Source of the DNA: Romanomermis culicivorax
Taxonomy: Eukaryota > Nematoda > Enoplea > Mermithida > Mermithidae
Direction of reading: 5' to 3'
Assembly (NCBI GenBank): GCA_963922205.1
Contig: CAWUHX010000004.1
Coordinates: 868,001 to 932,000 of the forward strand
Length of the DNA: 64,000 bases
The notes beneath the pieces are model-generated. The model did no database searches and had not been told where the DNA came from. It saw nothing but the letters and a program-made list of their open reading frames with translations. Of the stretch, positions 7,691-62,430 are shown in pieces (the stretch's first letter is position 1; every line of letters begins with the position of its first letter). Both the position numbers and the translations under genes were made by a program.

Positions 7691-8147
7691 TTTTCGAGCG
7701 CTAGCACACGTTTTTTTCACTCAATTGGCATTTCTGATTTGAGTTGGAAAAAAATCAATACCTTTGCCTTTTTCAACACTTGAAACATTTCGGGGGCCAT
7801 TGATCACGATTTTCTCCCTGTCGGAGTGAAATATCCGAAAATTATTTATTTAGCTGTGGAAGTCATAGGATCATGAAAGTGTGGTAAACAAGTGTGACCA
7901 TCACTAACTGTGGAAAAATTTAAACGAGAAATAATTCATCAAAGAGATTGCAAATGAATATTTCATAGTGTACTGAGTGTGAACATGAATTCAAGACCAA
8001 ATTACTACCAGTTCTTCAGTCTTACTATTTTTCCGTCACAAATTACTATTTTTATTTTTGTTCGATACAATTTCTCTCTCATGGAGAGAATTTTTTATAC
8101 ATGAGGAATGAAAAACAAACGATTACTGTACATTATGCACAACAAAT
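7691..8147. other. no gene seen
   Basis: AT-rich sequence between the R1 repeat and the BEN-domain fragment. I recognise no gene, repeat relative or RNA here. Confidence 0.5.
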
Positions 8148-8700
8148 TTACTGAGCACTTTTATTCCCCGATTTTAGAAAAGCATCAATTGCTTTGTGGC
8201 ATGTTCTCCAAACATCAGCATATTTTTCGTTTGTTTGGGGTGGAAAACCAATCATAACAGTTTCTTTGATGTGTTGAATACGCCACGATGACAATGGTTC
8301 TTTTCCTTGCACACCCCGTACGTTACTGTTCATTAATTCCTGAGGTGTATATAGCTTTTGTAACATTTTTGTACAAAATGAATGCTGTTTGTCTAATAAG
8401 TTCAATTTCGCTTTGAGAAAGAAAATTTTGGGTCGTCATTGTTTGAGGTACTTGTAACAACGGCGAACAAAAGACGGCTGAAGCAGGTGGAGGTTTTTCT
8501 AGCATTTCAGTAATTGGTGTATGAATGGGATTATAGTCATCTTCATTATGGTAAAAGTCGGCCAGAGTGTTGGTTGAAGAGTTGGCCGCTATTGGCAGAC
8601 TGTTGTGATTATTAGGTGTTGTACAGGGCATTGCGAGTGTGTTTCTCATCTCCATCACAATATTCAAAATTTTCGTATTAATTTGAATCGTTTCTCTTTT
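8148..8700 (-). pseudogene. BEN-domain protein, frameshifted
   Basis: Two overlapping minus-strand frames (8,323-8,667 and 8,148-8,405) together look like the C-terminal part of a BEN-domain protein. An N-terminal stretch rich in polar residues leads into IELIRQTAFILYKNVTK. After one frame change near 8,350-8,400 comes YTPQELMNSNVRG, then LSSWRIQHIKETVMIGFPP and YADVWRTCHKAIDAFLKSG. The order TP-x-EL ... NVRG ... L-x2-W-R ... IK ... W-x2-C-x2-AI is BEN-like. BEN domains bind DNA or chromatin proteins and occur in host genes, DNA viruses and some mobile elements. No upstream exon was identified; a stop lies about 20 codons before the first Met. The frame break suggests a pseudogene. The family call rests on motif recognition only. 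Confidence 0.55.
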
Positions 8701-9256
8701 GAATCATATTTTATTTTTAGTGCACAATTGCAGCAAGTCAAAAGCTGTTGTTACATGAAAATTTACGTGGAAATTTATCAGTTTCATTTGGAAATGTTAA
8801 GCATTTTAAAAGAAAGAATTGCACTGGAACCCCCAATAATTTTTATGCTCTGTGTGTGCATTTACTTATTGATTTAAAATGTCAACACAGGGCATAAGGT
8901 ACTAAGTATACTCCTGTTTTCCGCGTAAAATTTATGTCTACTCGAATTTCTTCTTGCAGGTTTTAATTGGTTAAGCTAATGATTTGGTCGATGATGTGCA
9001 TTTTGAAGGATACTGTAACTTATGACATGGAATTTCAGCCATTTAAATTATAATATTATTACTGGAGGTTATCGACATACGAATTTTTAATTCACAAACT
9101 TGACTCATTAATGTGCAGCATGTAAATAAGGCATCATTTTTAACACAAAATGAAAATGTAAAATTATGCAAATGTTGGTACTCCCCATTTTTTCCCATAT
9201 ATTTCTTTTCCATTTTATTTTATCTGTCATTTCCTTTATTATGTTATACTCTTATT
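8701..9256. other. no gene seen
   Basis: AT-rich gap between the minus-strand BEN fragment and the plus-strand exonuclease fragment. A pyrimidine tract ending in TTATTACAG at about 9,252-9,260 could be the acceptor of the next gene's first visible exon. Confidence 0.4.
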
Positions 9257-15526: not shown

Positions 15527-15639
15527 AGTCATAACGTGATTGACGCAGATTCTAAATATCTGAAAAAAAGAAACAACTATTCCTGCAGATGACCATGATG
15601 CAAACACCAAATAAAAATCAAAAAAACTAAATTTCATGA

Positions 15640-16440
15640 AAAAAAAACAAACAATTGGGTTAAAAATAAGTAGAAAAAAATTAATTTAAATTGAAAGAGA
15701 AGAAAATGTAAAATCAATAAAGGTAATGGAGCAAAAAAAATAGAAAATAAAAACGAATATAAATAATAAGGAAATGAGAAGAAAAAATAGGCTGGAAACG
15801 AAAAGAAAAAATGAAGTATGAAAATAAATAAGAAATGAGAAGGAAAAAATAGATAAGAATGAAAAAAGAATAAAACTGATAGAAAATGAAAACAAAAAAT
15901 TAAAAAATGAATGGAAATAATTAATATATGAAAACAAAAAATTTGAGAAAATGGAAGGAAAAAAGTTCTGGAGAAAACGACCAAAACAAACCATTTTTGA
16001 CATGTTATATGCACAAAGCATAAAAGAAAATAGTGTAGATTTTGATAGGCGTAGAAAACGTATATAGGCCTCATACGCATGAAAAGTTATTGAGCATTCA
16101 GAAAAAATATTAAAACAAAAAATTGAAATATAAATGAAAATAATGAAAAAATTGATAAAAAAAGAGAGAAAAATAAATAAGAAACTATCGAGGTAAAAAA
16201 TGCGTACAAAAAAGTTAATATAAATTGAAAGAAAAAAAGAAAAATGAATAAGAGTACTGAAACATAAAAACAAAGCATAAAAAATAAAAAATGAATAAAA
16301 ATAATTAGGAAATGAGAAGGAAATAGTGAATGAAAATGTTAAAAAAACAAAAGTACGACTAAAAATGAATACCAATAAAAAAGGAAAAATCAATGGAAAC
16401 AAAAAAATGTGAAAATTAGTAAAAGTGACAAAAATAATGA
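15640..16440. repeat. purine/A-rich low-complexity tract upstream of FBL-2
   Basis: Simple sequence dominated by GAAAATAAA, ATGAGAAGGAAAAAAT and similar words. The minus-strand frames here (15,634-16,402) encode almost only Phe, Ser, Ile and Leu and are artefacts. The same tract, shorter, lies upstream of FBL-5 at 42,300-42,545. Confidence 0.8.
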
Positions 16441-21704: not shown

Positions 21705-24700
21705 TCTGTACAGAAACATGGTTAAACAGTTGTATAACTGACGGATTTTATGTAATCTCAATGCTTAACATGTTTTTCGTAGCAATTGAGAAGGTAGAAT
21801 TGGAGGTGGTGTAGTGATTTTGGCCAAAAAATATTTAAATTTACATGTACTCCCACTACCTACAGACTTGTTTTTACCAAAAATACTTTTGGTGAATCTT
21901 ATTTCAGACAAGTCCACCTTGAAGTTACTAATCCTGACTATGATTTAAAGCTTTGTAACCTTATCACTTGGATTTCAAATCAATGTCATGAAAATATAAT
22001 TCTTGGTGATTTCAATCTTCCAAAATTTGATTGAAAATGCTTTTCATTTCCAGATTCAGAACTTCACACAGGATATTTTGATGCCTTTTCATCAATGGAC
22101 TTATCACAACTGGTCACAACTCCAACACACGAAAATAATATTATCAACCTTCTTTTTGGTGGCATACATGTAACAGAGCTCTGAGGTCTGGGGGGGAGTT
22201 GGAGCACTTTTTTGGGGCCGGGGTTCAGTAATTCCCAAAATTTTGGGGGGAAGGGGACCCTGAAGGAAAAAAATTTGATTTTTTCCATGAAAAATGTCCG
22301 AAAAACGGTTTAAAAAGTAGTAATTTTTGTCTAAAAAATGATTAAATATGTACTTATGCTGCGAAGCGCCGAGAAAATTGACGTTTTTGACCATTTTTTG
22401 TTCGAAAATTGACATTTTTCATGGAAAAAATGTCATTTTTCAGTATTTTCTGACTAAGACTATGGGAGTCCCTAGGGCTACCATATGGCTAGCCATAGGA
22501 TTGGAAAATCCTGGGGGGTCGCCCAATAGCTAGCCATATGCTCGACAATTTCTGGGGGGGGGGTTCCCATAGCACTTCCCCCCCCAATTACATGTATGTT
22601 TGGTGGTAAGAGTATCTCAAATGTTAAAGTCTGTCCACCATTTTCAAACTGTGATCACAACACCATAAGTTCTAAAGTATGTTTTAATACAAATCATAAA
22701 ATGCTTAAGTTTAGAAATTTTAACAAAAGGAGTTAGGAGGCAATTGGAGCTGAGTTATCACTAGTTTCTTGGCCTGACCTTTTTTCTCCATGTATTAATT
22801 CTGAAGAAATGTATCAAGTTCTTCTTGATGTTTTAACTCATCTGATTGATAGATATATTCCATTAGTCAAGCAAAAGCCTGTCAGATCCAAATACAATAA
22901 AAATATTCAACACTTGCTATCCAAAAAGCTTAGATTATGGAAAAAGTATCGAAGATGCCGAAATCTTGCTACAAAGCAAGCTTATCAATTCGATCAGAAG
23001 TGTTTAAACAACAACTAGCTGAAGAAAATCAAATTATTGCAAAAAATTACTCAAAGGCCTTCTATACCTTTGTAAACTCACGCCTATGCTCTACCTACTA
23101 GAGACCTACCCCCTCTAGTACATCAAGATTCTAATATCATAGATAATAATGTGAAATGTGAACTTCTCAATGATTATTTTGCATCTGTTTTTACACTGGA
23201 TAATGACACTTTGCCTGAATTCAAAAACTGATCAAACGTTGTTCTGTCATCAGTATCTTTCACAATTCCAATCGTTTTAGCAGCCATAAAAATCATCAAG
23301 CCATCCACAGCACTGGGACCCGACAATTTTTGTGCTTTTTTGATTGAAAAACTTGCTACACATTTGGCCCAACCACTTTCATCAATTTTTGAAGTTTCTT
23401 TCCAGATGAGCCACCTTCCCAAGTTATGGAATTTTGCAACTGTTCTTCCTATTTTCAAGAAAGGTGACCCAGCCCTGGTTGAAAATTATCGTCCTGTTTC
23501 CCTATGTTCAGTCCCATACAAAATTATGGAAAAAATTATTGATAATAAAATTTTAAGTTTCCTTCATCAGCATAACCTTTTAGCAGATCAAGAGTTTTCT
23601 TTCCTAAAACACTCATGGCTCAATCAGTTGGACAAAGGACACTCCTTAAGACATGGTGTACATTGACTTTGCTAAGGCCTTTGACTCAGTTTCTCATTCT
23701 AAGCTCCTTCTCAAACTTTCTAAATATGGTCTCTCTAGTCCCTTTTTAGGCTGGATATCAAATTTTCTTGAGAATAGATTTCAAAGGGTCAAAATTGGAA
23801 ACTCCCTATCATCTCAGCTCAAAGTGTCTAGTGGTGTGCCCCAAGGTAGTGTATTAGGTCCAACTTTGCTTCTTTTGTACATAAATTACATTATTGACAA
23901 TATCAAAAGTGAAATTTTTTTTGCAGATGATCTAAAAATTTTCAATGTCTCAACAAATTTTATGATTCTTCAACAAGACCTTGATACTCTTTCAAATTGG
24001 TCTGCCCTCTGGCAATTATCTATATCTACTGCAAAAAGTTATGTCTTGTATTTGGGTGCAAAAAAAACCCATTGTGTCAATATACACTTTGTTACCAACA
24101 TCTCCCATCAAACGCAATTTATGTTAAAGATTTGGGAATTCTTATATATCCTAATATGAAGTTTAAAGAACACTATAGATACATCGTGAAAAATGCCTAT
24201 AATAGGAAGAATACTGTAGTTCAGTATGGAATCCACATTTTTCAGTGGACGTTCGCTACATCGAAAATGTTCAACATAGATTTACCAGAAAGATTTTTGG
24301 TCATAAATCAGGTTTGTCCTATGAAGATAGACTTCAAAGGCTAGGTCCACACAAGCTTGATATTCCTAGATTAGAATCTGCCCTCTGTACCATGTACAAC
24401 ATAATCCACAAAAAAACAACTCTAAACCCTGATGACTTTTTCTGTATAAACAACAACAATATGCATCATAATCATGATCTAAGATTGAAAATAAAGTCAG
24501 TTTATCATACTACTGCTTGCCAGTTTGATTTCTTCAACTGTTATATTAGAGTCTGGAACTCTTTATCTTTTGATATCATTAATTCCCCCAGTTTGCACAC
24601 TTTCAAAGAAAAAATTAAACTTCTAGACTTTGATAATTGAATTGGGGGGGTGCATGTAAGTTGTTACTTTTCAAGTAACCTTTGCACCCTATTGCTGCAT

Positions 24701-31540: not shown

Positions 31541-31840
31541 TAGGTGGATGGGTTTTCTTGGCAGCAAAGATGAATCCATTCATTGATCAAGTCGTGTGGA
31601 GAAGGGCAATGCCAGCCGGTAATGATGGATAATCTTTTTTGCCCAGACAAACGTTTGATCGGCTCGAGTCCTACCAATAAGAAATATTGCAAGTTGGACA
31701 CTTTGAGGGGCAATTTCCGGATTTGTTCGGCATTTGGGACGTCGACGGAAAAATAACGTAAATTTGGACATTGATTCAAAATAGTCGAACGATCCTGAAG
31801 AAGCGGATTTATTAGCGTATAAATCTATACCTTCCAATCA
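31541..31840 (-). pseudogene. FBL-3, exon 2 fragment
   Basis: FBL exon 2 relative in two frames: MEGIDLYANKSASSGSFDYF shifts near 31,780 to QCPNLRYFSVDVPNAEQIRK, then a deletion removes the central repeats, and WHCPSPHDLINEWIHLCCQE ends it. No exon 1 follows upstream. The family match stops near CCTTCCAATCATA (31,831-31,843), the same place where FBL-6 is interrupted. Confidence 0.8.
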
Positions 31841-31859
31841 TACCTGGACAAATTATGTC

Positions 31860-35906: not shown

Positions 35907-37214
35907 TTATTTTTCGAACAGTGTTTGGCGATGGTTACGATGGCACCCATTATGTGATGTCCCGATGCCCACATGCTGTCATCGTGCGTTTTCCTCTGAA
36001 CCCGTAGACTTGATGTTTCATGCACAAGTCAGGGCCCCACACTCAGATATTTGTGACGGGCACTGCTGCACTCGCTCAGGCGATGCAGGGCTGTGCAGTT
36101 GGTGGTAGTGCATGCTATCACCTGGTGCGACACACGTTACACAGATTAAAAAATAGCAAGATGCAGGTTTTTTAGCAGTTAAAAACATGCAAATTGTGGT
36201 AATGATCCACATGACAGGTGAATGACGGGCAATACACTGTAGTTTATGTTACTTTTCTTACTGTTCGGCAAATAGTCGTTTTTCAGTTTCAAGTAGCTAT
36301 ACTTATTAATTTAGCCGATATCAATATAATCAGCAGAACTAGAACTTACAATTTCAATTTCCTTAATTCGCTGATCTTTTCAATATCATCGGAGTACAAC
36401 CCGTTGTTATTTATCCAAAAGTACTTTAAATTAACCATTTTTGATATTTTGTTGTAAATAAATGACTATACATCATCTGGCGCTGGCGAATAGTCTAATT
36501 TGAAAATTTCAATTCGATCGTAAAGGGGAAGTTTGTCGAAAAGCGTGCAATAAAATGCCAAATGTGTGGCGTAAACTTTCAAAGAAAATTCTTTCAATAG
36601 GGGACTATGGGATAGTAGAAAAGCAGGGAATTTTGTATGACCTTCGGAGTCTTCACAGTCAACCTTAATATTTTGAAAAGAAGGGAAATATAAATTTTTT
36701 ATAATCCTGTGATAAAATAAATCGGAATCTTCATCGACCTTGGTGTGACGAATGCACAAAGACAAACTTTTCCATTTTGGCAACCTCATCAATTTTTCGA
36801 TTAGCTGAAGATTACTGTGTGATACTGTAGCAATGTATAAACTTTCTAAATTAAAATTAACATCCAACAATGCATACAATTGTTCAAAATCTGCACTGTC
36901 CATTGTTCCATATAATCTCAGTGCAAAATGAGTCAAATGTTGACATGATGACAAATCAATCCAAAAATTTTGATAAGTCTTCAATTTGGTCAAGGCTGAA
37001 TGGCCAATAATAACTTGAATTATCCTGTCTCGAGCTTGATTCTTGACTTTTTTCTTTCCGCCGAGCTGCACTGAGTTGCTTCAAATTGTGAGCATTTTCC
37101 ACAAAACTCAATGCATATTTCCAGCCGAATATTCTGATAAAACTCGAATCAATTTCTAAACATGTCAGTTTTTCTAAACTAGGAAGAAGGATATGGAAAT
37201 TTTTCTCAAAATTC

Positions 37215-39684: not shown

Positions 39685-42202
39685 TTAGGTGGATGGGTTT
39701 TCTTGGCAGGAAAGATAAATCCATTCATTGATCAAGTCCTGATGAGAACGGCAAGGCCAGTGGGCAATGATCGATAATCTTTTTCGCCTGCACAAACGTT
39801 TCACCGGCTCGAGTCCTAACAATAAATCGTACAGCTCCTCAGGAATGAATAATTGACGTAAATATGGCAAATTTTGAACTGCGTATGTTAATGCGTCTTT
39901 GATTGGGGATAAGTCCCTCGTTGAACACTCGCCTATTAAGAAACATTAAAACATTAAATTAGAAACATTAAACCTATTAAGAAACATCGGAATAGGAATA
40001 CGTGCATAGTAGGAAACGTTGCAGGTTAGGCGCTTTGATGGGCAATTTCCGGATTTGTGCGGCATTCAGGAAGTTGACGCAGAAATAACGTAAATTTGGA
40101 CATTGATCCAAAATGAGGTCGAACGATTCTGGGGAAGCAAATTTATTGTTGTATAAATTCATACCCTCCAAAGAAGAGTTGGACCGCATCATTTTTATAG
40201 CTGCAGCATGCTTTGCTGACCAACGCAGACTGAAAAAAAATTAAGAATTAAAAAACAGTTCAGCAGCATACCTACTCAAAAAAAGGCATTGCAATCGATT
40301 GTTTGTTAAGATATCAAGGACGAAATATTTTTTAGCACAAGGTTCAAAAGTCAAGGAAATGAACATTTTTCGACAGCTTACCACCTTCAACGATCGATTT
40401 AGATTAAGAAATAGCATGATGCAGGTTTTTTAGCAGTTAAAAATATGCAAATTGTAGTAATGATGCACATGACAGGTGAATGACAGGCAATACATCGTAG
40501 TTCATGTTACTTTTCGGCAGATGGTCGTTTTTTCAGTTTCAACTAGCTAGTTCTTAGGCTTAAGGGTAATTTATGCTTGTCTTTTTTGACGGAACAGAAC
40601 GGATCGCCAGCAGTTTGAAAAGTTCAGCTCGAAAATACACTTCGAAAATCGCAAAGGATGACTACAATTTTCTAGAAAATGACAAATGGTAACCTCCAAC
40701 CGAAAATGGAACGAAAATTCCGCTTCGGTTCAGTGATGTTGTGTCCATTGCATTTCGCTCCGTTCTGTTGGAAAAGTCAAGCATAGATGACCCTTGAGGC
40801 TTCTTCCTGCTCATTTATGTTAATTTTATCACAAAGTCGCGCATTTATTTGTTTCTTGCGTTCAAATTGGTCACCCTTCGGCAGCATTCCGTACGCTCAG
40901 TTTTCACCAATTCAGCATAGATGAAAAATGATCACCATGATTTTCTGAACAAGACGAAAGACAAATTTATTCTTTTGGCCCTTCGTCACGAAAAAATAAT
41001 CAAGCCAATATCAATATAATTAACAGAATTGGAACTTACAATTTTAATTTCCTTAATTCGCTGATCTGTTCAATATAATCGGAGTAAAAACCGTTATAAT
41101 TTATCCGAAAGTGCTTTAAATTAACCATTTTTGATATTTGATTGTAAATAAACGACTGTACTTCATCTGGCTCCGGCGAATACACTAGTCTGAAGATTTT
41201 CATTTGATTGTAAAGGGGAAACTTGTCGAAAATAATGCGATAAAACGCCAAATTTCGGTGGAATGCTCTCAAAGAAAATTCTTTCAACAGGGGACTACGG
41301 GATAGTAGGAAAGCAATGAATTTTGCGTGACTTTCCGAGTCTTTACAGTAAACCTCAATATTTTGCAAAGAAACGAAATACATATCTTTCATAATTCTGT
41401 GATAAAGTAAATCTTCATCGGGCTGGGTGTAATCGAACTGACAAATTTCCAAAGACAAACTCTTCAATTTTGGCAACCTCATCAACTTTTCGATCAGCTG
41501 AAGATTATCAAGTGATACTGCAGAAATTTCGAAACTTTCTAAATTCAAATTAACATCCAACAATGCATACAATTGTTCATAATGTGCAGTGTCCATTCTT
41601 CTATTTAATCTCAGTGTGAAATCAGTCAAATTTCGACATGATGATAAATCAATCCATAAATCATAGCGTGGAACAACTATTAATTTCGTCAAGGCAGAAT
41701 GGCCAATAATGATTTTATTTATCCTGTCTCGCAGTTTATTCTCGAATTTTTCATTTCTGCCGATAGCTGCACTAAGTTGCTTCAAATTGGGAGCATTTTC
41801 CACAAAACTCAATGCACATTCCCAGCCGAATGTTTCGATAAAATTCCAATCAATTTCTAAACACGTCAGTTTTTCTAAACTAGGAAGAAGGATAACGAAA
41901 TTTTTCTTGAAATTCTCTAGTATAAATGGATGAGGCGAACGCGAATCCCATCTTTTCGTGAGCATGAAAGACAAGACCTTGTGCAAATTTTTTAAACGAA
42001 GCAGGCTGGAACAATATGCACGAATTTTTGCCATAATTTTTGTCCAGGAAACAGTGAACATTCGATCGAAATCAAAGCATTTTAACCGATGCAATTCCCA
42101 TTCGACGCAACTTTTGAAATTTGGACTTATTCGCTCCGCTATGCATAATTCTTCGAAGTCGAAATACTTTAAGACTTCCGTAATAATATCGACGTCGTCC
42201 AT
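39685..42202 (-). pseudogene. FBL-5, F-box/LRR-like gene with a damaged exon 2
   Basis: Exon 1 is 42,202-41,040 (F-box VLKYFDFEELCIAERISPNF, then LRR-like repeats), the intron is 41,039-40,230 (GTAAGT to TTTTTTTCAG) and exon 2 starts at 40,229. The splice is in frame, and the frame runs to a stop at 39,977-39,979, giving 471 aa. The last ~70 residues of the family (LRQLFIPEELYDLLLGLEPV; QDLINEWIYLSCQENPST) are still present at 39,870-39,685 beyond a small rearrangement at about 39,925-40,000 that repeats AAGAAACATTAAA words. A shortened protein could still be made, so this is either a truncated gene or a young pseudogene. A 5'-UTR acceptor (GTTCAG, 42,236) matches FBL-2. Confidence 0.8.
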
Positions 42203-42299
42203 ATGAATAAGGTGATCGATTCAGATTCTAAATATCTGAACAAAAGAAGCAACTTTTTCTCCAGATGATGATGATGCAGAAACCAGATAAAAATCAAAA

Positions 42300-45140: not shown

Positions 45141-47230
45141 CAAACACAAAAAGTAAGAATTTCAGCTATGAATCTTCTGGAATTCTTACTTTTTGTGTTT
45201 GTAAGAATTTTCTGTACAGAAACATGGTTAAACAGTTGTATAACTGACGGACTTTTATGTAATCTCAATGCTTACAATGTTTTCCATAGCAATCGAGAAG
45301 GTAGAATTTGAGGTGGTGTAGCGATTTTCGCTACCAAATTCTAATCCTGACTATGATTTAGAGCTTTGTATTCTTATCACTTGGATTTCAAATCAATGTC
45401 ATGAAAATATAATTCTTGGAGATTTCAATCTTCCAAAATTTGATTGAAAATGCTTTTCATTTCCATATTCAGAACTTCACACAGGATACTTTGATGCCTT
45501 TTCATCAATGGGCTTATCACAACTGGTCACAACTCCAACACATGAAAATAATATTATCAACCTTCTTTTTGGTGGTAAATGTATCTCAAATGTTAGAGTC
45601 TGTCCACCATTTTCAAACTGTGATCACAACACCGTAAGTTCTAAAGTATGTTTTAATACAAATCATAAAATGCTTAAGTTTAGAAATTTTAAGAAAAGGA
45701 GTTAGGAGGCAATTGGAGCTGAGTTATCACTAGTTTCTTGGCCTGACCTTTTTTCTCCATGAATTAGTTCTGAAGAAATGTATCAAGTTCTTCTTGATCT
45801 TTTAACTCCTCTGATTGATAAATATATTCCATTAGTCAAGCAAAAACCTGTCAGATCCAAACACAATAAAAATATTCAACACTTGCTATCCAAAAAGCTT
45901 AGATTATGGAAAAAATATCCAAGATGCAAAAAATTTGCTAAAAAGCAAGCTTAACTTTTCTTATGTAAACAAATTCGATCAGAAGTGTATAAACAACAAC
46001 TAGCTGAAGAAAATCAAATTATTGCAAAAAATGACTCAAAGGCCTTCTATACCTTTGTAAACTCACGCCTAGGCTCTACTAGAGACCTGCCCCCTCTAGT
46101 ACATCAAGATTCTAATATCATAGATAATAATGTGAAATGTGAACTTTTTAATGATTATTTTGCATCTGTTTTTACACTGGATAATGACACTTTGCCTGAA
46201 TTCAAAAACCGATCAAACGTTGTTCTGTCATCAGTATCTATCACCATTCCAATTGTTTTAGCGGCCATAAAAAGCATCTAGCCATCAACAGCAGTGGGAC
46301 CCGACAATTTTTGTGCTTTTTTGATCAAAAAACTTGCTACAAATTTGGCCCAACCACTTTCATCAATTTTTGAAGTTTCTTTCCAGACGAGCCACCTTCC
46401 CAAGTTATGGAATTTTGCAACTGTTGTTCCTATTTTCAAAAAACGTGACCCAGCCCTGGTTGAAAATTATCGTCCTGTTTCCCTATGTTCAGTCCCATAC
46501 AAAATTATGGAAAAAATTATTAATAATAAAATTTTAAGTTTCCTTCATCAGCATAACCTTTTAGCAGATCAACAGTTTGGTTTCCTAAAACATAGATCCT
46601 GCGAACTACAGTTACTCAAGTGTAAAAACTCATGGCTAAATCAGTTGGACAAAGGACACTCCTTAAGACATGGTGTACATAGACTGCCAAGGCCTTTGAC
46701 TCAGTTTCCCATTCTAAGCTCCTTTTCAAACTTTCTAAATATGGTCTCTCTAGTCCCCTTTTAGGCTGGATATCAAATTTTCTTAAGAATAGATTTCAAA
46801 GGGTCAAAATTGGAAACTCCCTATCATCTCAGCTCAAAGTGTCTAGTGGTGTGCCCCAAGGTAGTGTATTAGGTCCAACTTTGTTTCTTTTGTACATAAA
46901 TGACATTATTGACAATATCAAAAGTGAAATTTTTCTTTTTGCAGATGATCTAAAAATTTTCAATGTCTCAACAAATTTTATGATTCTTCAACAAGACCTA
47001 GATACTCTTTCAAATTGGTCTGCCGTCTGGCAATTATCTATATCTACTACAAAAAGTTATGTCTTGTATTTGGGTGCGACAAACCCACCGTGTCAGTATA
47101 CTTTTGTTTCAAACATCTCCCATCAAAGGCAATATATGTTGAAGATTTGGGAGTTCTTATATCTCCTAATATGAAGTTTAAAGAACACTATAGATACATA
47201 GTGAAAAATGCCTATAATAGGTCTACTTTA

Positions 47231-49999: not shown

Positions 50000-50401
50000 T
50001 TTAGGTGGATGGGTTTTCTTGGCAGCAAAGATGAATCCATTCATCGATCAAGTCGTGTGGAGAAGGGCAATGCCAGCCGGTAATGATGGATAATCTTTTT
50101 TGCCTAGACAAACGATTCACCGGCTCTTGTCATAACAAGGAATGACTAATTGACGTAAATTTGGCAAATTTTGCAGTGCGTATGTTAATGTGTCCCTGAT
50201 TGAGGATATGTCGGAATAGGAATAATACATGCATAGTAGGAAATATTGCAGGTTGGGTGCTTTAAGGTTCAATTTCCGGATTTGTTTGGCATTCGGGATG
50301 TCGACGGAAAAATAACGTAAATTTGGACATTGATTCAAAATGGTCGAATGATCCTGGGGAAGCAGATTTATTAGCGTATAAATCTATACCTTCCAGTCAT
50401 A
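50000..50401 (-). pseudogene. FBL-6, exon 2 interrupted by the Tc1/mariner-type element
   Basis: FBL exon 2 relative: QCPNLRYFSVDIPNAKQIRK, LKAPNLQYFLLCMYYSYSDI, ALQNLPNLRQLVIP. The frame then breaks near 50,120, with the usual C-terminal end (GLINEWIH-type, about 50,030) in another frame. The family match ends at CCTTCCAGTCATA, where the element's target TA lies (50,400-50,401). No exon 1 is found on the far side. Confidence 0.8.
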
Positions 50402-50605
50402 CAGTCCGGCGCACAATCAATGCTGTGTTTGTGTTTGAAATTCAAACACTTCTCAAACAATCGGACAAACTTTTGCTCAAACGATTCACAAACAGCACAA
50501 ACAGTGTTTGAAGCAATTTTGTTTGTCATTTGTTTGAAAAGTGTTTGAAAAATGTTTGTGACCCTATCTCGAAGTGTTTGTGGATTGTTTGAGGCGGCAA
50601 TAAAT
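50402..50605. repeat. left TIR and subterminal repeat zone
   Basis: After the TIR there are about eight GTTTGA words in about 190 bp, in both orientations (for example CAAACACTTCTCAAACAA and AAGTGTTTGAAAAATGTTTG). Likely transposase-binding sites by analogy with other elements; this is inference. Confidence 0.8.
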
Positions 50606-51146
50606 AAAAGAAAAACAACTGGTGGCGCGTGTCATAAGTTGACAAGAAGATTAATGAACCTGCGAGTGTGTTATGACGAAGGTTGAATTTGTGCGTTGCG
50701 TTCCTTTATTGAAAAACAAAGATCTATTTAATGTAAAATTATTGTTATAAACAAATAGAATGGCCCAATTGTGGGTTACTGTATTTTTATGTGAAGATTC
50801 GATATTTATCATACATGTGTACCTGCCGAAAAACATCCAGATATCCAAGAATTTGAAATGAAAAATTTCCAGCAAAGTTTCATACTGTAATTAATAAAAG
50901 GTTCACTTAACTGATTCTGGAATGTATTGAAGAAGAGTGAAAAAATCAGTGGCTTATTTTTGAAAATTATTAAAATAAAGAAGGAAATTTGAAGTTCGGG
51001 ACAATGCTGGGCCACCCCTATTTTCCAAAACTTGGGGCACTACTTTAACAATGTGTTTGATGTACCTACGACACTTTTCGACTGTAATTTTTTCCGACCA
51101 AAAAAGTTTTTATGCCTTCAATGAGTTCGTTCAATGTTTTCGGCTT

Positions 51147-52049
51147 CTAGGTGCTACAGAGATATTCTTTCATTTCGTGCCAGACGTTTCCGATTGCATT
51201 CAGATCAGGTGACTCTGGTGGCCAGAAAATTGGATCGTACTTTGGTTCATTTTCATTAATAAATAACATCATATCAGAACTTTTGTGACATGGGGCACTA
51301 TCAGCTTGAAAAATATAGTCAGAAGATGAGAAATTTCGTTGAACAAAAGGAATCAAACCAATTTTCAATATTTCCTGGTAAACAGAGCTATCAATACAAA
51401 TTTTTTTGAGTAAAATAATAATATCTGTCGCACCATGCCAACTTATTCCAGCCCAAACATGGACTTTGACTGGATGCTTGGCATGTGACCTTAATGTCAT
51501 TAACTTGTCATTATGCTTTTTCCAAATCTGTCCTTTATGTCTTTCTAGTTGAATGCAGCTTTCATCAGTAAATAATATTTTGTACAGTAAACTGGGATTA
51601 TCGATTATTTTTGCACAAAAATATAATCATTTAATTTTATTTGCATGGCGTACAATTTGACAGTACTTTGGATGTGCAGGTGTCCATCCTAAGGAACGTC
51701 TCAAGTGGTTTACAGTAGCTGCTGATATACTGCAGTCAAATTCAGACCAAATTTTGTTAGCTAACTGCGGCCCAGTCATTTCATTTTTTTCATTCATCTG
51801 TACCTCAATAAAATCCAAAATATAATTGGGTGCCTTGATGGATTTATGTTTTCGTTTGTTCATCAAATGTCTCCTAATTCGATATCGGATAATTAAGCGA
51901 TGCATGCCAGATTTATTCAGCACTATTTTTTCATCAATATAACATCTTTCAACTATTGATCTGTCCTTTAGTCCCTTCTTGTGCAGTCGTATTATTCTTT
52001 CACGAATATAGGGACTATAATGCTTCAACCGAAGGGTATATGGATTCAT
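51147..52049 (-). pseudogene. DD36-type Tc1/mariner transposase, one stop and E-to-G change
   Basis: Cut-and-paste transposase for the surrounding element. About 300 codons in one frame from ATG at 52,049 to a stop at 51,147. N-terminal HTH region: RERIIRLHKKGLKDRSI and later TVNHLRRSLGWTPAHP. One in-frame TGA at 51,627-51,629 follows HANKIK. The catalytic domain has the first Asp in ILFTDESC (51,564-51,566), then VHVWAGISWHGA, and the second Asp in FQADSAPCHK (51,300-51,302). Thirty-six residues later SPDLNAIGNVW has Gly (GGA, 51,189-51,191) where the family has Glu, so spacing is DD36 with a lost third residue. The rest of the frame is open, so decay is light. Known DD36E elements exist, but they are usually small and single-gene. 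Confidence 0.88.
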
Positions 52050-52225
52050 GACAAAATAATCTAAAAAGAGGCAGGCCAGAAAACAAGTGAATGGTCAGCA
52101 AATATAGCATGTATGACACATTATACTGTAGGTTAAATTTCTGTACCATAATAATTAATCAACCACCAATGAAGGTAGCAACATTATGTGACAATACATT
52201 TCATTGCTCCAAGTCTCTGTGAAAC
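52050..52225. promoter_or_regulatory. likely bidirectional promoter of the two-gene element
   Basis: 176 bp AT-rich spacer between two divergent start codons. It is the only space where promoters of both genes could sit close by. No TATA box or initiator is clear enough to name. Confidence 0.35.
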
Positions 52226-52993
52226 ATGGCTTCTCATTCCAAAAGACAAAAAAAGAGAAAGCCTCTAGTGGATTTAGATGATGGAACATGGTCCGTCATC
52301 AATACCAAAAAATTAGAAGGAAGTTTGATTGACAAAGGGCAAAAAGTTTTTGTAACGTGGCCGAATATTGGATGAATTTCTGGAGTTGTGTGGGCAATCA
52401 GCAATTTGATCACACGATTATCTGATGCCCGTACAAAAGGTTCGAGTGAATATGTTTCAGATGACGAATTTGTTCAGGAGGCTGATGGTTGTGATCAGTT
52501 GCAATGAAAATCATCATCAGTGGCAAAAAAACGTCCGCAAAATCCAAATGATGTTGATCCTAGCAGTTGGGTGACTGCAGCCCCAGCATCTTCAGTTCAA
52601 CAAAGCATTGATGATGACATTTCCTCCAGCTTGCTGATAACACTTGCAACTGCGATGACATCTGCCTCCAATCTGGTCACAAATTTTGCAGGGGTAGCTG
52701 GAAGCAATGTCATTCACGACCGGCCAGATAGTCAGAGTGGCTACAGTAAAGGCGATGATCAATTGAACGATTTGAAAAAAATTATCAAATTATTAGAAGT
52801 TATCGCCGAAAATACAACAAAAAGTGTTTGGTTATTGGAAAAACTCACTTCGTGTCAAATTTCAGAACAGGAGCCAACAATAATTGCAATCGAAAACGAA
52901 AATGTGATTCTCAACGAAAATTCAAAAATCAGCGAAACAAATGGCCACATGACAGAGCCAGGTAACAGCGAGTTTAAAAATGACACTGCATAA
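52226..52993 (+). pseudogene. second gene of the Tc1/mariner-type element, function unknown
   Basis: One reading frame of 256 codons from ATG at 52,226 to TAA, broken only by TGA at 52,373-52,375 and 52,505-52,507. Residues 1-13 are basic (SKRQKKRKP), resembling a nuclear localisation signal. Residues ~30-60 (KGQKVFVTWPNIG, then SGVVWAISN) could be a small beta-barrel. An acidic stretch, a Ser/Ala-rich stretch and a helical, possibly coiled-coil stretch (LNDLKKIIKLLEVIAE) follow. I do not recognise the family. BEN-type proteins may have such a coiled coil before the BEN domain, but no BEN domain is seen here. Placement inside the TIRs and divergence from the transposase suggest an accessory factor; host-gene capture is the alternative. 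Confidence 0.7.
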
Positions 52994-54655
52994 TTTTTAT
53001 TCTTCCACTTTTACTGTAGAACAAGAAAGTTATGAGAAAAACACACTATTGCTCACAGTTCAATTTTAGTGCATATGAGGCAGAATTTTATTGTGAAAAG
53101 CTAACAGAAAACATGTGAAGCACAACAAATATTCTATAGTCAGTTTTTTATAAAATGCTTCCAAATAGAAAAGTGACAGAAGTCAGTACTGTCATTAAGA
53201 CTGTTTGCATAGAGCCTGTACTGCAAAAATTTTCACTCAAAAAGTTGTTAAGGATTAGGTCATTAAGCTCACAAATTTTCAGCCCTATATGACACATTGT
53301 TTATTAGCAAATCGGGAAAATCTAAAATACAACTTGCTTTCCTCTTTCATTATTTAGATGCATTTCGAGAAAAACAAACTGCAGGAAATTCGAAACATTT
53401 AGTAAAACATGGTAGTGTTCTAATATTCTGTGAGCTGAATTAATGCAGAGATGAGCAGTATAGCTTATTTTGCATATAATGAGACTGTATATTAAATTAT
53501 CAATAATTTCAGAGGAGATACTGCTCTTTTCTATGATGATGTATAGCACGGAGAAAAATAAGGCAGTAAACAGTTTCTCACTGGATTTCTCATTGGCTTG
53601 TAAGAAAAAAGGCATCTTCTAAAGCAAGTTATCAATTTGGATAGAATTGCTCAGGCATCATTGAGGCTAACTTGAAAAAATGGATTTAGTATAAATGTAA
53701 TCTATGTTCTCCAGTCAATGAAGGAAAAAATAATGAGACAAAATTAAGTGAAGAACAATGCAACAAAAAATGAAGTTATCATAATGTTTGGCAGTTTTTT
53801 ATACTCACAATTTAGTCTTTCCTAAAAAAATAGTTTTTTGACTCACAAAATAGAAATCGTCTCAAAAAATTCGTTGGATAATCGCAACATGAAAATATGG
53901 TTGTGCACATGAAAAATTATCAAGATGGTGTAGTAGAGAATAGCCCATAATGAAGTAGAGAATAGCCACTGATTTAGTAAAGGCAGACTGGACGAAAAAA
54001 TGTGTGGAAAAAATAATAACGATTGTGATGAACCTGGATTGCAATAATGTGCATTAGGTTTTTCCTCTACAAAAAATATGTTTTGTTATCTTCTGGCATA
54101 ATCAAAGGTTTCTATTATTCGACCCAAAAATTTTCAGAGATCAATAGGCCGATGGATTCTTTGTCCAGGTCGAGCGACCATCGGTGGCACCAATCGAGCG
54201 ACCATCAGCGGCGCCAATGGTTTTTGAAAGCTTGACCCGAAAAAAATCGACTGGTTAATAAAAATTGTTTTTTTAAAATATCCAGTTGAACCTGGAAAAA
54301 CGGCCTCATCTGAATGGAGTTCGATTCGGAACACTATCGATACTCACATGAGGCGTTCTTACAAACGTTCACATTAAATGTTTTTTTGATTTTTCACCAA
54401 TAAATTCGCCTGCAAACATCTTTTTTGTGTTCATTCGATAATTACTATATTTTTCTGATTGATAATATAAAAAAATAAAGTATGAAGTACACTTTGCTCA
54501 GTGGGAATTTCCAGCAGAAAATTCTCTACATTGTGTACCTATAGATATAGTAAGATGCACGGAAGTGGTTTCGAACGCTTTCCTGCCTATGGTAAATATA
54601 AACTGTTCCCGTGATTTATGACACACAGGTGACATTTATATGCTTTTCGGCTCGA
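52994..54655. other. interior of the two-gene element without a recognised gene
   Basis: AT-rich; small ORFs (for example 53,322-53,615 minus) show no family features. CGAGCGACCATCGGTGGCAC and a second similar copy about 25 bp on (54,170-54,215) form a short direct repeat. Confidence 0.5.
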
Positions 54656-54864
54656 CTATGAAGGACAAACAGTGTTTGAGAAATGTTTGTGAATTGTTTG
54701 AGCCATGACTGGCGAGTGTTTGAGAAATGTTTGTGCTTTGTTTGTGGAGTGTTTGAGAATATTTTTTCGTCTTCAAACCTTTCTCAAACAAAGCTCAAAC
54801 AATCCACAAACTGTTTGTGTTTGAAGTGTTTGAAGTTTGTAGGCGTTGTTTGTGCGTCGGACTG
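54656..54864. repeat. right subterminal repeat zone and TIR
   Basis: About nine GTTTGA words in both orientations (such as GTGTTTGAGAAATGTTTGTG and CTCAAACAAAGCTCAAACAA), then the right TIR TTGTGCGTCGGACTG. Confidence 0.8.
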
Positions 54865-54866
54865 TA

Positions 54867-56814: not shown

Positions 56815-59800
56815 TCACGTGGATGGAGTTTCTTTGCAGCAGAGACGAAGCCATTCAAGCATCACATTGTCTTCAGGTAAATTCTCGTCACAAGAGACCA
56901 ATAATCTTTTACGCCTACACAAACGTTTGATCGGCTCATGTCCTAGCAATAAATTGTATAGATTTGTACAAACCCATAATTGACGTAAATTTGGCAAATT
57001 TTCCACAACGTAGGTCAGATCATCAGTTGCAGAATAGCAACTGTAATCACGTAATGGCAAATATTGCAGGTTGGGTGCTTTGAGCGCCAATTCTCGCATT
57101 AGTTTGCTATTCATGAAGTCGATGGAAAAATAACGTAAATTTGGACATTGATTCAAGATAAGGTCGAACAATGCTGGAGAACCGTGTTCATTATCATATA
57201 AATCTAAACCTTCCAACGAAGGCGTGAAACGCAACATTTTCAAAGCTCCGGCGTCCAGTGCTGACCAGCGCAGCCTGAAGAAAATTCAAGAATTGAATTC
57301 ATTTATCAAAGGAAAAACGTGTTCATCAACACATATAGCTGGTGCGGTTGGGTGAGCAAAAAAACAAAAAAAGTTCTGCAAGCCTGTTTTTCATACAAAA
57401 TATGCACAAAAATCATCAAAAAAGTTGTCTTGAAAAAAGCTCAGGGGGGTGTTTGACGATTTTTTTCGGCCAAGAGGAGATCAGGGTCTCAGGTATGGGG
57501 GTTTACCCCTCCAACCCCTCTATGTGCATGTATGTTTAACATGCATGTGCATGGTACCAGTTTCAGGCTGGGGATAAATCTCAAAATCGTTGGGTGGCAA
57601 ATTTTTTTCTTGATTTTTTTTAAAAGTAAACTTTATTTAGGATACCAACATGATGTTCAGTTATTTCTACTGACTAGGATTTTTAATGTTCAGTGTGAAT
57701 ATCAATTTTTCAATAATGAAGCGAAGAAATGCTGCCAAGAATCCACTCATACTCTCACACAGGGTATGGACAGGCTATGAATTTACCTACCCTAAAAAAT
57801 TTGGCAGAAGTTTACTATAGGCCACAAATTTGGCAAAGTAAAATGCAGCAAACATTTTGAAAAGATTAGATTACAAAAAAAGATCAATTCAAAACATAGT
57901 TAATGATTAATGTCAGGAAAGATCTTTGTTGAGGGATTATTAATACAAAAGGCAATAAAATTTCATCTTAAGGTAAAAACTTGATTTCTGGAAAAAATTA
58001 CAAAGCAACCAATTCTGATCACTTTCTATACCCTGGGACCCTTGACTGTAAAGAAGTATGCAACCACTAATTTTACAGCTGAAGACTGGTTGGCCAAAAT
58101 TGACTGACAGTAAATCCCAGACCTAAGGCTCAGCCCGGGGATAGTTCCTGGGCTCTGCGCTCCCTAGGCCCATGTGTTCTCTTTGATATCTCGCCTGAAA
58201 AATCATTCTACAAAGCATGTGAAAAATCAAAATATATCGAATATTTTAATATATATAATATATACACAATAAACTGTCGTGTTCCATGTTTTTTATCTAG
58301 TTTTTATAATCATGACTGGAACATGTAAAATATGCATAACTAGTTTATTAGAAAATGCCTCGATCGGGCAGAAAAAATGAGAATATACTTGCTTCGACAG
58401 TTGCCATGGTAGAAAAAGAAGTGGACTAGATTTTTGAGAACTTGGGTCAAAGTTGGAAAAAAATTCACTTTCTTTATATTGGATTTTCATTCTTTCTCAA
58501 AAAAAATTTTCCATGTCTGTGAAAAAGTATATTCTGCAGCATCGTGCATTTTGTCCTTCAACTGGCATCAACTACAGTAAAATTTTTCTATATTAAAATT
58601 ATATGCACATGATTTCAAATGTAAAGAAATGGTAAACCAATAGCTTTCTAACTCCCGACCGATTCGAAACTCCTGCCTCTCACACTAGCTGAAAAATAGT
58701 GAAGCAGGCATATTATAGTCATTTCCAGAACTAAAAGAAACCTGAGGTTGATCGCACTAACCCAACATGAGGATAATCTCAACATCGGGATTAAATTGAT
58801 GATCCTGAGTTTAAGCTATTCACAATGTTCAAATTATTTTCTTTCAAATCATACTCACTTCAGGATTAACTAAAACTGAGGTTTAAGTTCGAGTTTAGGA
58901 ATCACAGAAATTTTCATATTTATTTGCTTTAGAGACAAGAAAATTATGCCAAAATGTCACTTCATTCTTTTTGTTGACACCAAATTCAGTGAAATGTTTA
59001 ACACCATTGGAAGCAAACATGTGTGAGAGGAGACACGAGGGTACAAATTTCCACAAGGGTTTTGAAACTGGAAAACTTAGTATGCAAAAATTTTTTGGTC
59101 AATTTTTTTTTAAGTTTTGGTCTCACAAAATGCTAAAACATCAAAGTCCACGCCTGTACTCTCCTAAAAATTTCAGAGATGCACATCCTTGGTTGGAAAG
59201 TGTGTTGATGCACTCAGCTGCAGAATATACTTTTTCACAGACATAGACAATTTTTTTAGAAAGAATGAAAATCCAATATAAAGGAAGTAAATTTTTTCCA
59301 ACTTTGACCCAAGTTCTCAAAAATCTAGTCCACTTCTTTTTCTACCATGGCAACTGTCGAAGCAAGTATATTCTCCTTTTTTCTGCCCGATCAGGGCATT
59401 TTCTAATAAACTAGTTCACCTCTTTTTAGTGGGCCTCAACCGTGCACAAAAACTTTCATAGAAGCACATTGAAGTCTTAACTTCGGTCATCTGCACTTCA
59501 GAAACACTAAAAAAAAACTTCAAGCAACAAATTCTCACTTCCGGCAAAAGTAAAGGATGTGTAAACCGCGTAGTACTTAAAAAACAGTGTAAAGATACTG
59601 AAAGGTGACCATATCTATTGAATTGTTCATGGTTTAGAATCCTTCAACCCAAAAAATCGCAGAAATACCTTTGTTTACACAAATGACTTTTTTCGTGTAA
59701 ACTGACTCCGTCCATTGAATTTCCCATGGTCATAAACATCTTCCCTCAAAAATCGCAGAAATACAGTTGTTTACACTCAATATGAATTGATGTGTAAAGT

Positions 59801-62359
59801 GATCACTTTCATTAAATTCCCAGTGGTAGAAAACCCCTCCCTCAAAAAACTCACGAAAACAGGCTTGGTTAAATCCGGAATAATTTTTTTTGTGTTAAGT
59901 GACACATCCATTGAATTCCCCGTAGTCGAAAACCCCTTCCATAAAAATCACGAAAATACGCTTGTTTACACCTGCGGTAGTTTTTTTTATGAGATGATCA
60001 CATTCATCAAATTCCCCGTGGTCGAAAACCCCTTCCATCAATAAATCACGAAAATACGTTTGTTTACACACGGGATAGTTTTTGGTGTAAAGTTATCACA
60101 TTCATTGAATTCCTCGTTGTCGAAAATCCCCTCCACAAGAAAGTTACGGCAGTACGCTTGTTTACACCGTGGATAATTTATTTTTGTGAAGTGAGGACGT
60201 CTATTGAATTCCCCGCAGTCGAAAACTCCCTCCACTAAAAAATCACGGAAATACGCTTGTTTACACCCGGGATAATTTTTCGTGTAAAGTGACCGTGTCC
60301 ATCAAATTCCCAATAGTCGAAAATCCTTGCAGCCCAAAAATCTCAATGAGGCTACAGGTTTTTTCTTTGAAACGGCTAAAAAATTAGTAGTGCATTATGC
60401 TGCTAAAACTAATTTTTTTGAACCCATAAGTGTTATATAACAAAATTGGGGGATTTGGCGTTTTCCGGGACTTTGGACAACCATATAATTGAATTGAGGC
60501 CATATTTCAAAAAAAGAAAAATTCGCATTTGAGATTACACCCCCAAGATGCTTTGACCGAAGTATGGAGGTTGGATATGGTACACCAATTGCTGGGCATG
60601 GTGGAACTGGGGGGCCTTAAAAAGTGCGTTTTTTGCGTGTTTTTGGGGACCCACCGAGCACCACTTGCAGATAGAGGCGAAATGACGAAAGGCACCCCAT
60701 AGTTTGCCCCTATGTCCGATATTATGCAAAAAACCCGAAGGTTCTAGCTCTTACCGTTTTGGCTCTAGAGGGGGGGGGGACATGAAATTTGGGGGCCAAG
60801 TATATTATAGGTTGACCCTGTCACGCCACCTATGATAATGAAATTTGGATCCACTCGAAAACGATCAAATGTAAAATGTTTCTTCAACTTCATAACATTA
60901 TGTTGGTTATTATTGAATGAAAACTAATCCAAACCACAGATGCACATAGGGAGTAGAGCAGGTGAACTATCCTACCTGAGATCCAGGGCATCCTCCCTAG
61001 TCCAAAAAAATCGTCATACACTCTCATCTAAACCTTTTCGATGTTTTTTATGCATATTCTGTACAAAAAACAAGCTTGTATAACTTTTTTATTTTAGTGC
61101 TTGCTCAGCCCGCACCCACTGGATAAAAAACCCTAGAAAATTCTTGCTGTGCATCTCTGAATGTAACTATGAGTTTATTCCAAACTTTTGCCCATCTAGT
61201 AACTTTAAACATTCACTCCTATTGATATCATCAGCAAATTTGGAACTTACAGTTTTAGTTTCCTTAATTCGGCGATCTTTCGAAAATCATAATCATGGGG
61301 GTCTAAGCAGAAGTACTTCACGTTCACCATTTTCGATAATTCATTGTAAACAAACGATCCTAGTTCATCATACAAATCACAGTAAATTGTGAAAATTTCA
61401 ATTTGATCGTAAAGGGGAAATTCGTCGAAAAGGATGCGAAAAAATGCCAAGTCACTATAGAATGCTTCCAAAGAAAGTTCTTTCAACCGAGGACTACGAG
61501 ATAATAAAAAGGCAACGAATTTCGCGTGACTTTCGAATTGTTCACACTCAACCTGAATATTTTCCAAGGAAACGAAATATAAATCGTTTCTAATTCTGTG
61601 ATAAGGTAAATCGGAATCTTCGTCGTGAATGTATAGAGACAAACTTTTCAATTTTGGCAACCTCACCAACTTTTCAATGAATTTCAAATTATTAAGTGAT
61701 ATGTTAGTAATATTCAAACTTTCTAAATTTAAATTAACATCGAGCAATGAGAACAGTTGTTCGTATTTCGAAATGTTCATTCTTCCATAAATCGTCAGTG
61801 TAAAATGAGTCAAATTTCGGCACAATGATAAATTAATCCATAAATCGTTGCTGTAATTAATTTCCAATCTCATTAAGGCGGAATGGCCAATAATAACTTT
61901 ATTTATCCTCTGTCGTAATCCATTGTCCAATAATCGATATTCACTTATATCCGCACTAAGTTGCAGCAAATTACGAGAATTTTCCACAAAACTCAGCACA
62001 TTTTTCCCATTGAATTTTTCAAGAAAACATGATTTGATTTCCAAACACGTCAGTTTTCGTAAACTTGGAAGAAAAATAAGGAAATTGTTCAGAAAATGCT
62101 CAAATGTAAATGCATCAAGCACAAAAGACGTCACGTTGTAAAAATTTTTTAAATGATGCAGACCGGAGCAATATGTTTGAATTTTGTCCATTACGCTCAT
62201 CCAAGAAACAGTAAATATTCTACCAAAATCGACGTATCTCAACCGATGCAATTCCGATTGGACGCAACTTTTGAAATTTCGATTTATTCTCTCCGCCATG
62301 CATAATTCTTCGAAGTTGAAATATTTTAGGATCTCCGTAATTATGAGAACGTCATCCAT
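56815..62359 (-). CDS. FBL-7, F-box/LRR-like protein, two exons, 4 kb intron
   Basis: Exon 1 is 62,359-61,251, the intron is 61,250-57,275 (GTAAGT to TTTTCTTCAG) and exon 2 is 57,274-56,815. Coding length is 1,569 nt, about 522 aa, open through the join. The F-box is at residues ~1-40 (ILKYFNFEELCMAERINRNF). LRR-like repeats follow (LIFLPSLRKLTCLEI; KLVRLPKLKSLSLYI; FDLILNQCPNLRYF; NLPNLRQLWVC). The C-terminus ends CCKETPST, close to FBL-2's CCEENPST. The role is inferred as in FBL-2: an SCF ubiquitin-ligase adaptor. The start is the first Met after an acceptor-like GTTTAG at 62,393, matching other members. The intron is nearly all repeats. The exon pairing rests on phase and family structure; a second gene hidden between the exons is the main alternative. 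Confidence 0.75.
57340..57531. mobile_element. MITE-2, 5'-truncated, in the FBL-7 intron
   Basis: Contains CAGGGTCTCAGGTATGGGGG and the end CTATGTGCATG; the other TIR is missing. The ORF crossing it (57,342-57,539) is not real. Confidence 0.65.
57532..58299. other. intron sequence, nothing recognised
   Basis: Part of the FBL-7 intron. No gene, RNA or repeat relative seen. Confidence 0.5.
58300..60340 (-). repeat. R1 composite repeat, inverted copy, with ~99 bp satellite
   Basis: Inverted relative of 745-2,740. It has an arm at 58,310-58,550 (AGAATATACTTGCTTCGACA), a centre, an inverted arm at 59,000-59,420, then about seven satellite monomers at 59,580-60,340. Monomers share ACGAAAATACGCTTGTTTAC and ATTCCCCGTGGTCGAAAACC at about 99 bp spacing. 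Same satellite as at 4,843 and 6,343, opposite strand. Confidence 0.7.
60400..60850 (-). repeat. intron block paired with 4,367-4,760
   Basis: Inverted relative of the block after FBL-1. Contains CCAAGTATATTATAGGTTGA and AAAAAGTGCGTTTTTTGCGT. Noncoding; the ORFs on it are chance. Confidence 0.6.
60938..61156. mobile_element. MITE-2 in the FBL-7 intron
   Basis: Inverted ends AGATGCACA and TGTGCATCT, perfect over 9 bp. Interior ACCTGAGATCCAGGGCATCC. TSD not seen. Confidence 0.7.
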
Positions 62360-62430
62360 ATTGATGAAGTTTTCGATAAAAAATGTAACTGTCTAAACAA
62401 AAAAAAGAACTTTCTTTGCAGATGAGAATG

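Follow-up and report, generated by a model that had tools for sequence, protein, structure and literature searches.

Introduction

Tc1/mariner elements have been described as small, mostly one-gene machines, and Sleeping Beauty/Tc1 elements in particular carry one gene and are of the DD34E type. In En/Spm (CACTA) elements, TnpA, an accessory DNA-binding protein, goes together with a repeated subterminal motif. Here we describe an element occupying positions 50402 to 54864 of a 64,000-nucleotide stretch of the genome of the nematode Romanomermis culicivorax (assembly GCA_963922205.1, contig CAWUHX010000004.1, positions 868,001 to 932,000 of the forward strand; hereafter the window), together with its relatives in the host assembly (359 Mb, 595 contigs). 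These are TA-flanked elements of 4.7-5.9 kb that carry a Tc1-type DDE transposase gene, a divergently oriented BEN gene and subterminal arrays phased at 11 bp. We propose that they form a two-gene lineage of the Tc1/mariner superfamily whose predicted BEN protein probably attaches to the arrays, either assisting transposition or regulating it. The DDE_3-type catalytic domain with its triad and the TA target site duplication (TSD) are features of this superfamily; the size of the elements and their two genes depart from the compact single-gene layout that is typical of it, if not strictly defining.

Results

The element in the window

The initial annotation had placed at 50402-54864 an element with matching terminal inverted repeats (TIRs) and TA on both sides, and this delimitation is borne out by flank and terminus-pattern checks. 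The element measures 4463 bp with TA adjoining both of its ends, and a 21-base terminus pattern typed from family A, to which this copy belongs, finds only two matches in the window when up to 3 mismatches are allowed; these are the element ends themselves, with 2 and 0 mismatches, against a chance expectation of 0.00. The left flank has a paralogue at 31678-31842, a repeat that matches it as far as the TA. The sequence following that repeat does not match the right flank of the window copy, and no two-sided empty site was found. The left flank sits inside a repeat of the LRR/F-box-like gene family described below. The two genes are, as had been annotated, divergent and arranged start to start. 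The parts of the element are the following:

50400-50401, no strand: TA target site duplication, left
50402-54864, no strand: whole element, a decayed family A copy of 4463 bp
50402-50422, plus strand: left terminal inverted repeat
50424-50593, no strand: left subterminal array with 11-bp phase, made up of units like TGTTTGAG/TGTTTGTG in both orientations (limits approximate)
50996-52049, minus strand: transposase pseudogene (DDE_3), its low end set by homology to the 350-aa frame of copy L039
51627-52049 and 51147-51626, minus strand: open pieces of the transposase, N-terminal and catalytic, respectively
52050-52225, no strand: intergenic region between the divergent start codons, presumably a shared promoter
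52226-52961, plus strand: exon 1 of the BEN gene, with two in-frame TGA in the window copy
52962-54137, plus strand: putative phase-1 intron, GTAAC...TTTTCAG
54138-54377, plus strand: exon 2 (BEN domain), with an internal deletion relative to copies L039, L041 and L042
54673-54840, no strand: right subterminal array, 11-bp phase (limits approximate)
54844-54864, minus strand: right terminal inverted repeat
54865-54866, no strand: TA target site duplication, right

The transposase of the window copy lies on the minus strand in two open pieces and has a clear DDE_3 domain. The DD36 spacing attributed to it holds, with 36 residues between the second D and the third catalytic position, but the triad is not intact: the third residue is G, not E, and the gene is broken by a frameshift and by two or more in-frame stops. 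In the genome search, residues 1-320 were matched across one TGA and one TAG, and residues 308-350 in another frame. Nor is the plus-strand frame at 52226-52993, annotated as 256 codons long, open, being interrupted by TGA at codons 50 and 94. Because of the stops, the frameshift and the G in place of the catalytic E, together with the two TGA in BEN exon 1, the window copy is dead.

The left flank of the window copy is shared with that of another copy, C4:848446-853104, so that the two may be related by segmental duplication. The second-gene protein encoded at 52508-52990 of the window is 100% identical to that at C4:850450-850932, about 70 kb apart, while the end matches of these copies differ by 11-16%; gene conversion or a chimaeric duplicate is a possible source of the identical stretch.

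Copies across the host assembly

The suggestion made in the initial annotation, that this may be a little-described lineage with an accessory gene, is supported by full-length two-gene copies and by two diverged families. Full-length copies with both genes, which it had proposed to look for, were found in C31 (4680 bp), C203 (4678 bp), C10 (4710 bp) and C4:848446-853104 (4659 bp), all of near-full size for family A, as is the window copy (4463 bp). Both genes are kept in three full-length copies of 4.68-4.71 kb, and in at least one copy none of the three coding pieces is interrupted. The intact design of family A, as seen in these other copies, includes a DD36E transposase of about 350 aa. In the C31 copy DDE_3 scores 59.8 bits (cut-off 28.6). 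The catalytic triad aligns with that of the Sleeping Beauty transposase (profile match, E 2.5e-21); HTH_33, HTH_32 and HTH_Tnp_Tc3_2 matches in the N-terminal region are all under their cut-offs. TA is present at both ends in eight of eight elements (the window copy, L039-L042, C342, C35 and C489).

Searches of the assembly with the element ends, in which the best candidates only were scored, gave 40 left and 42 right matches. Pairing these within 25 kb yielded 29 pairs, a few long ones of which may join different copies. With the N-terminal 140 aa used to count the transposase, nine pairs contain it together with exon 1 or BEN, six have exon 1 or BEN only, none has the transposase only, and 14 have neither. 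A total of 39 transposase matches, collapsed by hand into 29 loci, include 11 from family A that have exon 1 or BEN no more than 0.8 kb away and six diverged ones with BEN at 2.2-5.9 kb. Terminus patterns allowing up to 2 mismatches were found 102 (family A), 152 (B) and 855 (C) times, the reversed-pattern control giving 0 each time. A viral contig scan with the transposase alignment returned 16 pattern matches, with no relative among them.

Three other Tc1/mariner families of the assembly, sampled at one copy each, served as controls. They are single-gene elements of 1.37-1.38 kb: C58 (1.37 kb, 28-bp TIR), C258 (1.37 kb, 33-bp TIR) and C53 (1.38 kb, 28-bp TIR), the last with a broken transposase frame. 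Inside their TIRs, every frame of at least 90 codons either is that of the transposase or overlaps it; in C53, retroelement-like frames extending past the ends of the element are present in addition.

Pairing of the two genes in diverged families

The divergent transposase and BEN gene pair recurs in family B (C342, 5863 bp; C35, 5321 bp; and C189) and in family C (C489, 5047 bp). Over the aligned part, the transposase of family B is 59% and that of family C 48% identical to that of family A, with corresponding BEN identities of 34-37% and 22%. Between families A and B (C31 versus C342), nonsynonymous and synonymous differences per site amount to 0.28 and 0.79 in the transposase and to 0.43 and 0.77 in the BEN exon; synonymous sites are saturated between families, hence no A-B rate ratio is quoted. 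In families A and B, 36 residues lie between the second D and the third residue of the catalytic triad; in family C the number is 35. Introns seem to be present in the family C transposase (L062, L082), where a shared KHPVKVHVWAGIS stretch is, by eye, divided between two open pieces.

A transposase tree of the kind recommended in the initial annotation was built from the catalytic half of the protein (156 alignment columns), with only Sleeping Beauty and the three local control families as references. Within this limited set, A, B and C come out as one group (support 84/88; 86% of 200 bootstrap trees) set apart from Sleeping Beauty and the three control families. The tree does not settle in which order the three families of the group branched. 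On sequence comparison, transposase and BEN gene have been co-inherited across the three diverged families.

A stretch of the window at 7799-8755 is about 90% identical to a piece of a family C element, on the BEN-gene side, and the window therefore holds remnants of two families of the two-gene lineage. Contig C4 is rich in family C BEN matches.

The second gene

What the initial annotation had described as a 256-codon second frame is exon 1 only. It had overlooked a second exon, which carries the BEN domain, and gave neither an identity for this gene nor any mention of the 11-bp-period arrays inside both ends. The C31 copy has a 257-codon frame and, about 1.1 kb further along, another that matches Pfam BEN at 27.2 bits. 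The putative junction has a GT donor (CCAG/GTAAC) and an AG acceptor (TTTTCAG/AG) and joins the exons in phase; in those family A copies where an exact-pattern search, which would miss altered sites, found matches, the donor GT is present in all except L014 (GG), and the acceptor is present. The second gene of family A thus appears to be spliced from two exons.

Pfam BEN, with a curated cut-off of 23.2 bits, scores 27.2 in family A, 37.8 in family C and, in family B, 25.7 for C35 and 21.5 for C342. An AlphaFold2 model of the family A BEN exon has 88 of 157 residues at a predicted local distance difference test score (pLDDT) of at least 90 and is confident from about residue 50 to residue 157. 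Among the 53 PDB matches returned by Foldseek for this model at E <=10, ranks 1-21 and 23 are BEN-domain chains, from BANP, BEND3, Bsg25A, BEND6, Insensitive and NACC1, and rank 22 is a chain of the BEND3-PICH complex; the five matches at E <=0.001 are all BANP (best 1.3e-4). In the exon 1 model (pLDDT 51) there are long helices, and the stretch from residue 14 to residue 61 includes four strands. The second gene encodes a predicted BEN-domain protein with the domain at its C-terminal end.

A genome-wide Pfam BEN scan, in which 18 candidates were scored, gave 13 matches at E <=0.01, all above the cut-off. Each of the 13 falls on a gene copy of family A, B or C, and no BEN match was found outside these families in the assembly, although such a scan might miss a host BEN gene whose coding sequence is divided among short exons. 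No ends or TSD belonging to the second gene itself were seen. A chance open reading frame, or a capture confined to one copy, was considered for this gene and rejected, since the gene recurs in other copies and in families A, B and C.

Phased subterminal arrays

In family A, TGTTTG units repeat in 11-bp steps inside both ends. GTTTG pairs separated by 11, 22 or 33 bp number 10-13 in A ends, against random-position means of 0.8-1.6. Phasing was found in ten of the ten 230-bp ends tested, from five mutually related copies, the observed pair count being reached by 0 of 1000 draws. The array unit of family B is GCTTG, with 14-16 CTTG units per 230-bp end and 12-25 phased CTTG pairs in four of four ends, a number that no random draw equalled. 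The arrays of family C are CGCG-cored, and the right end of C489 is significant for CGCGT; CGCG occurs across the window at a frequency of 0.39 per kb. The 11-bp step would place the array units on about one face of the helix.

Arrays are also found in miniature inverted-repeat transposable elements (MITEs). Nine B MITEs were picked by exact paired termini 0.8-1.1 kb apart, so as to avoid circularity; 17 of their 18 ends show phasing, for one or both of two words at <0.01, and TA stands at all 18. The two C MITE copies are phased at four of four ends, with CGCG offsets such as 37, 48, 59, 70 and 92, and steps that are all multiples of 11. Phased-word scans of two interior stretches of the window element, and of the ends of C58 (L081), the control copy scanned, gave at most 1 phased pair per word.

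Other features of the window

An expanded LRR/F-box-like gene family, whose members are mutually similar by eye, occupies 3371-4018, 13033-13545, 14363-15685, 36466-37080, 41036-42220, 56815-57285 and 61247-62392; Pfam LRR gave one weak match below cut-off for 14366-15685 and none for 61250-62392. The stretch 28607-29146 matches a hAT transposase C-terminal dimerisation region (40.7 bits). Two reverse transcriptase fragments, alike by eye, lie at 23232-24640 and 46282-47174, the second with an RVT_1 score of 35.2 bits, and a 98-bp tandem repeat array of about 5 copies lies at 59652-60323.

Discussion

Proposed working of the two-gene elements

As in other Tc1/mariner elements, the transposase would cut at the 21-25 bp terminal repeats, while the BEN protein may coat the arrays on one DNA face through its C-terminal BEN domain, possibly assisted by the weakly predicted beta-fold and long helices encoded by exon 1. 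Such coating would help to pair the two ends, or set the activity and expression of the element, and in every family the array motif and the BEN domain would have changed in step. Given putative binding of the arrays by this protein, a role as an end-pairing co-factor or an auto-regulator seems the likeliest. In favour of the proposal, the CGCG core of the family C arrays is a sequence to which the BEN domain of human BANP binds (PMC10206803). It may be, although we put this forward tentatively, that we are dealing with an old animal lineage of two-component Tc1/mariner elements in which a self-encoded BEN protein sits on phased end arrays, is needed for pairing or selectivity, and has a specificity that co-evolves with the array motif.

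Several observations weigh against this proposal. The phasing of C489 is weak on the left (0.023), ACGCG is not significant on the right (0.121), and its array includes one 10-bp step. Among 16 further A termini, those outside the end-search lists, only eight are TTTG-phased (<0.05), the unphased ones looking truncated or decayed by eye; TA is present at 12 and missing at four. Array copies within one family are relatives and not independent events. The BEN domain of C342, at 21.5 bits, falls below the Pfam cut-off, the fold of exon 1 is poorly predicted (pLDDT 51), and the support for the A, B and C group (84/88) is middling, on 156 columns and with several long end branches. The best site of the BANP BEN domain by array is AAATCTCG, which is bound more than 8-fold better than CGCG (PMC10206803). 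The arrays themselves could equally be transposase sites. Finally, 12 of the 29 transposase loci are without a nearby BEN or exon-1 match: nine A-type loci on C5 and C491 (for example C5:1250803-1253089, C5:1968665-1971208 and C491:9572-12100), with no second-gene match within 70 kb, plus C36, C230 and C74. The initial annotation had foreseen that other copies might contain the transposase only; two-gene copies exist, and these nine loci do lack a second-gene match. They are partial matches, most carrying stops, with eight on one contig, and constitute a derived, decayed subfamily concentrated on C5.

Alternative explanations

The BEN protein might instead be the element's own transcription or chromatin factor, acting on the end arrays as a boundary or repressor that sets the divergent promoter or shields the element from silencing. 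Cellular BEN proteins are transcription factors that recruit chromatin modifiers (PMC10206803), and a single short intergenic region is common to both genes. Yet the short B copies keep arrays at both ends (17 of 18 ends in nine copies); as these copies need no promoter to move, a cis requirement for movement fits better, and we regard a purely transcriptional role as unlikely.

The transposase itself might bind the arrays as additional sites, the BEN gene doing something else. This view draws on the behaviour of Tc1-type transposases, which occupy inner as well as terminal repeats; in Sleeping Beauty or Bari, the inner repeats are such additional sites. A CACAAAC-like stretch common, by eye, to the terminus and the array of family A points the same way. 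However, the 14-16 CTTG units of each 230-bp B end are unlike what is found in known Tc1 elements, where such sites number one or two, and the control families have TIRs of 28-33 bp, the one scanned (L081) with at most 1 phased pair per word. The CGCG core of the family C motif is, moreover, a known BEN target (PMC10206803). Array binding by the transposase seems doubtful to us. Far less probable still is that the BEN gene was captured from the host and travels as a passenger in a single lineage of copies: host gene capture is common among transposons and 12 of 29 transposase loci are without the BEN gene, but gene order and orientation are the same in A, B and C despite an A-C BEN identity down to 22%, open frames have been retained between A and B, and the genome scan (13 matches, 18 scored) gave no BEN match outside the A, B and C gene families.

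If the proposed co-operation of BEN protein and arrays is correct, these elements would represent a Tc1/mariner machine that works with two proteins, and BEN domains would have a home on a transposon. The deep retention of a second gene of DNA-binding type, along with matched phased arrays, makes the need of a mariner-type transposase for a partner testable, and three family-matched pairs of protein and site are available for work on BEN specificity. Transposons may also have been the source, or the destination, of some BEN genes.

Comparison with known systems

Among known systems, DD36E/Incomer elements share with the present ones 36 residues between the second D and the E, a transposase of about 346-350 aa, a TA TSD and a short terminal repeat (PMC6875036). 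Incomer elements are about 1.2 kb long and have one ORF in that description, whereas those reported here are 4.7-5.9 kb long and have a second gene and phased arrays; the spacing, moreover, is 35 in family C as against 36 in Incomer. Filing the lineage under DD36E/Incomer on spacing alone was considered and rejected on size and gene content, by which the description of Incomer sets it apart. The ciliate TBE and Tec elements are likewise multi-ORF Tc1/mariner elements, TBE encoding a zinc-finger protein and Tec a site-specific recombinase, but they have three ORFs, a DD34E transposase and ciliate hosts, where the present elements have two genes, the second of them BEN; section 8 of PMC7325037, from which this account of TBE and Tec is taken, mentions no BEN protein. 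Searches of open-licence PMC papers turned up no report of a BEN-carrying Tc1/mariner element. Sleeping Beauty/Tc1 elements have a related transposase core, with which the triad aligns, yet their spacing is DD34E, as also seen in the alignment, and Sleeping Beauty falls outside the A, B and C group in the tree. BANP, BEND3 and Insensitive have the same predicted fold as the BEN exon but are cellular regulators, whereas the protein described here is transposon-encoded. TnpA of En/Spm would be analogous in its working only: with an unrelated transposase and a different TSD, En/Spm is not a member of the group to which these two-gene elements belong.

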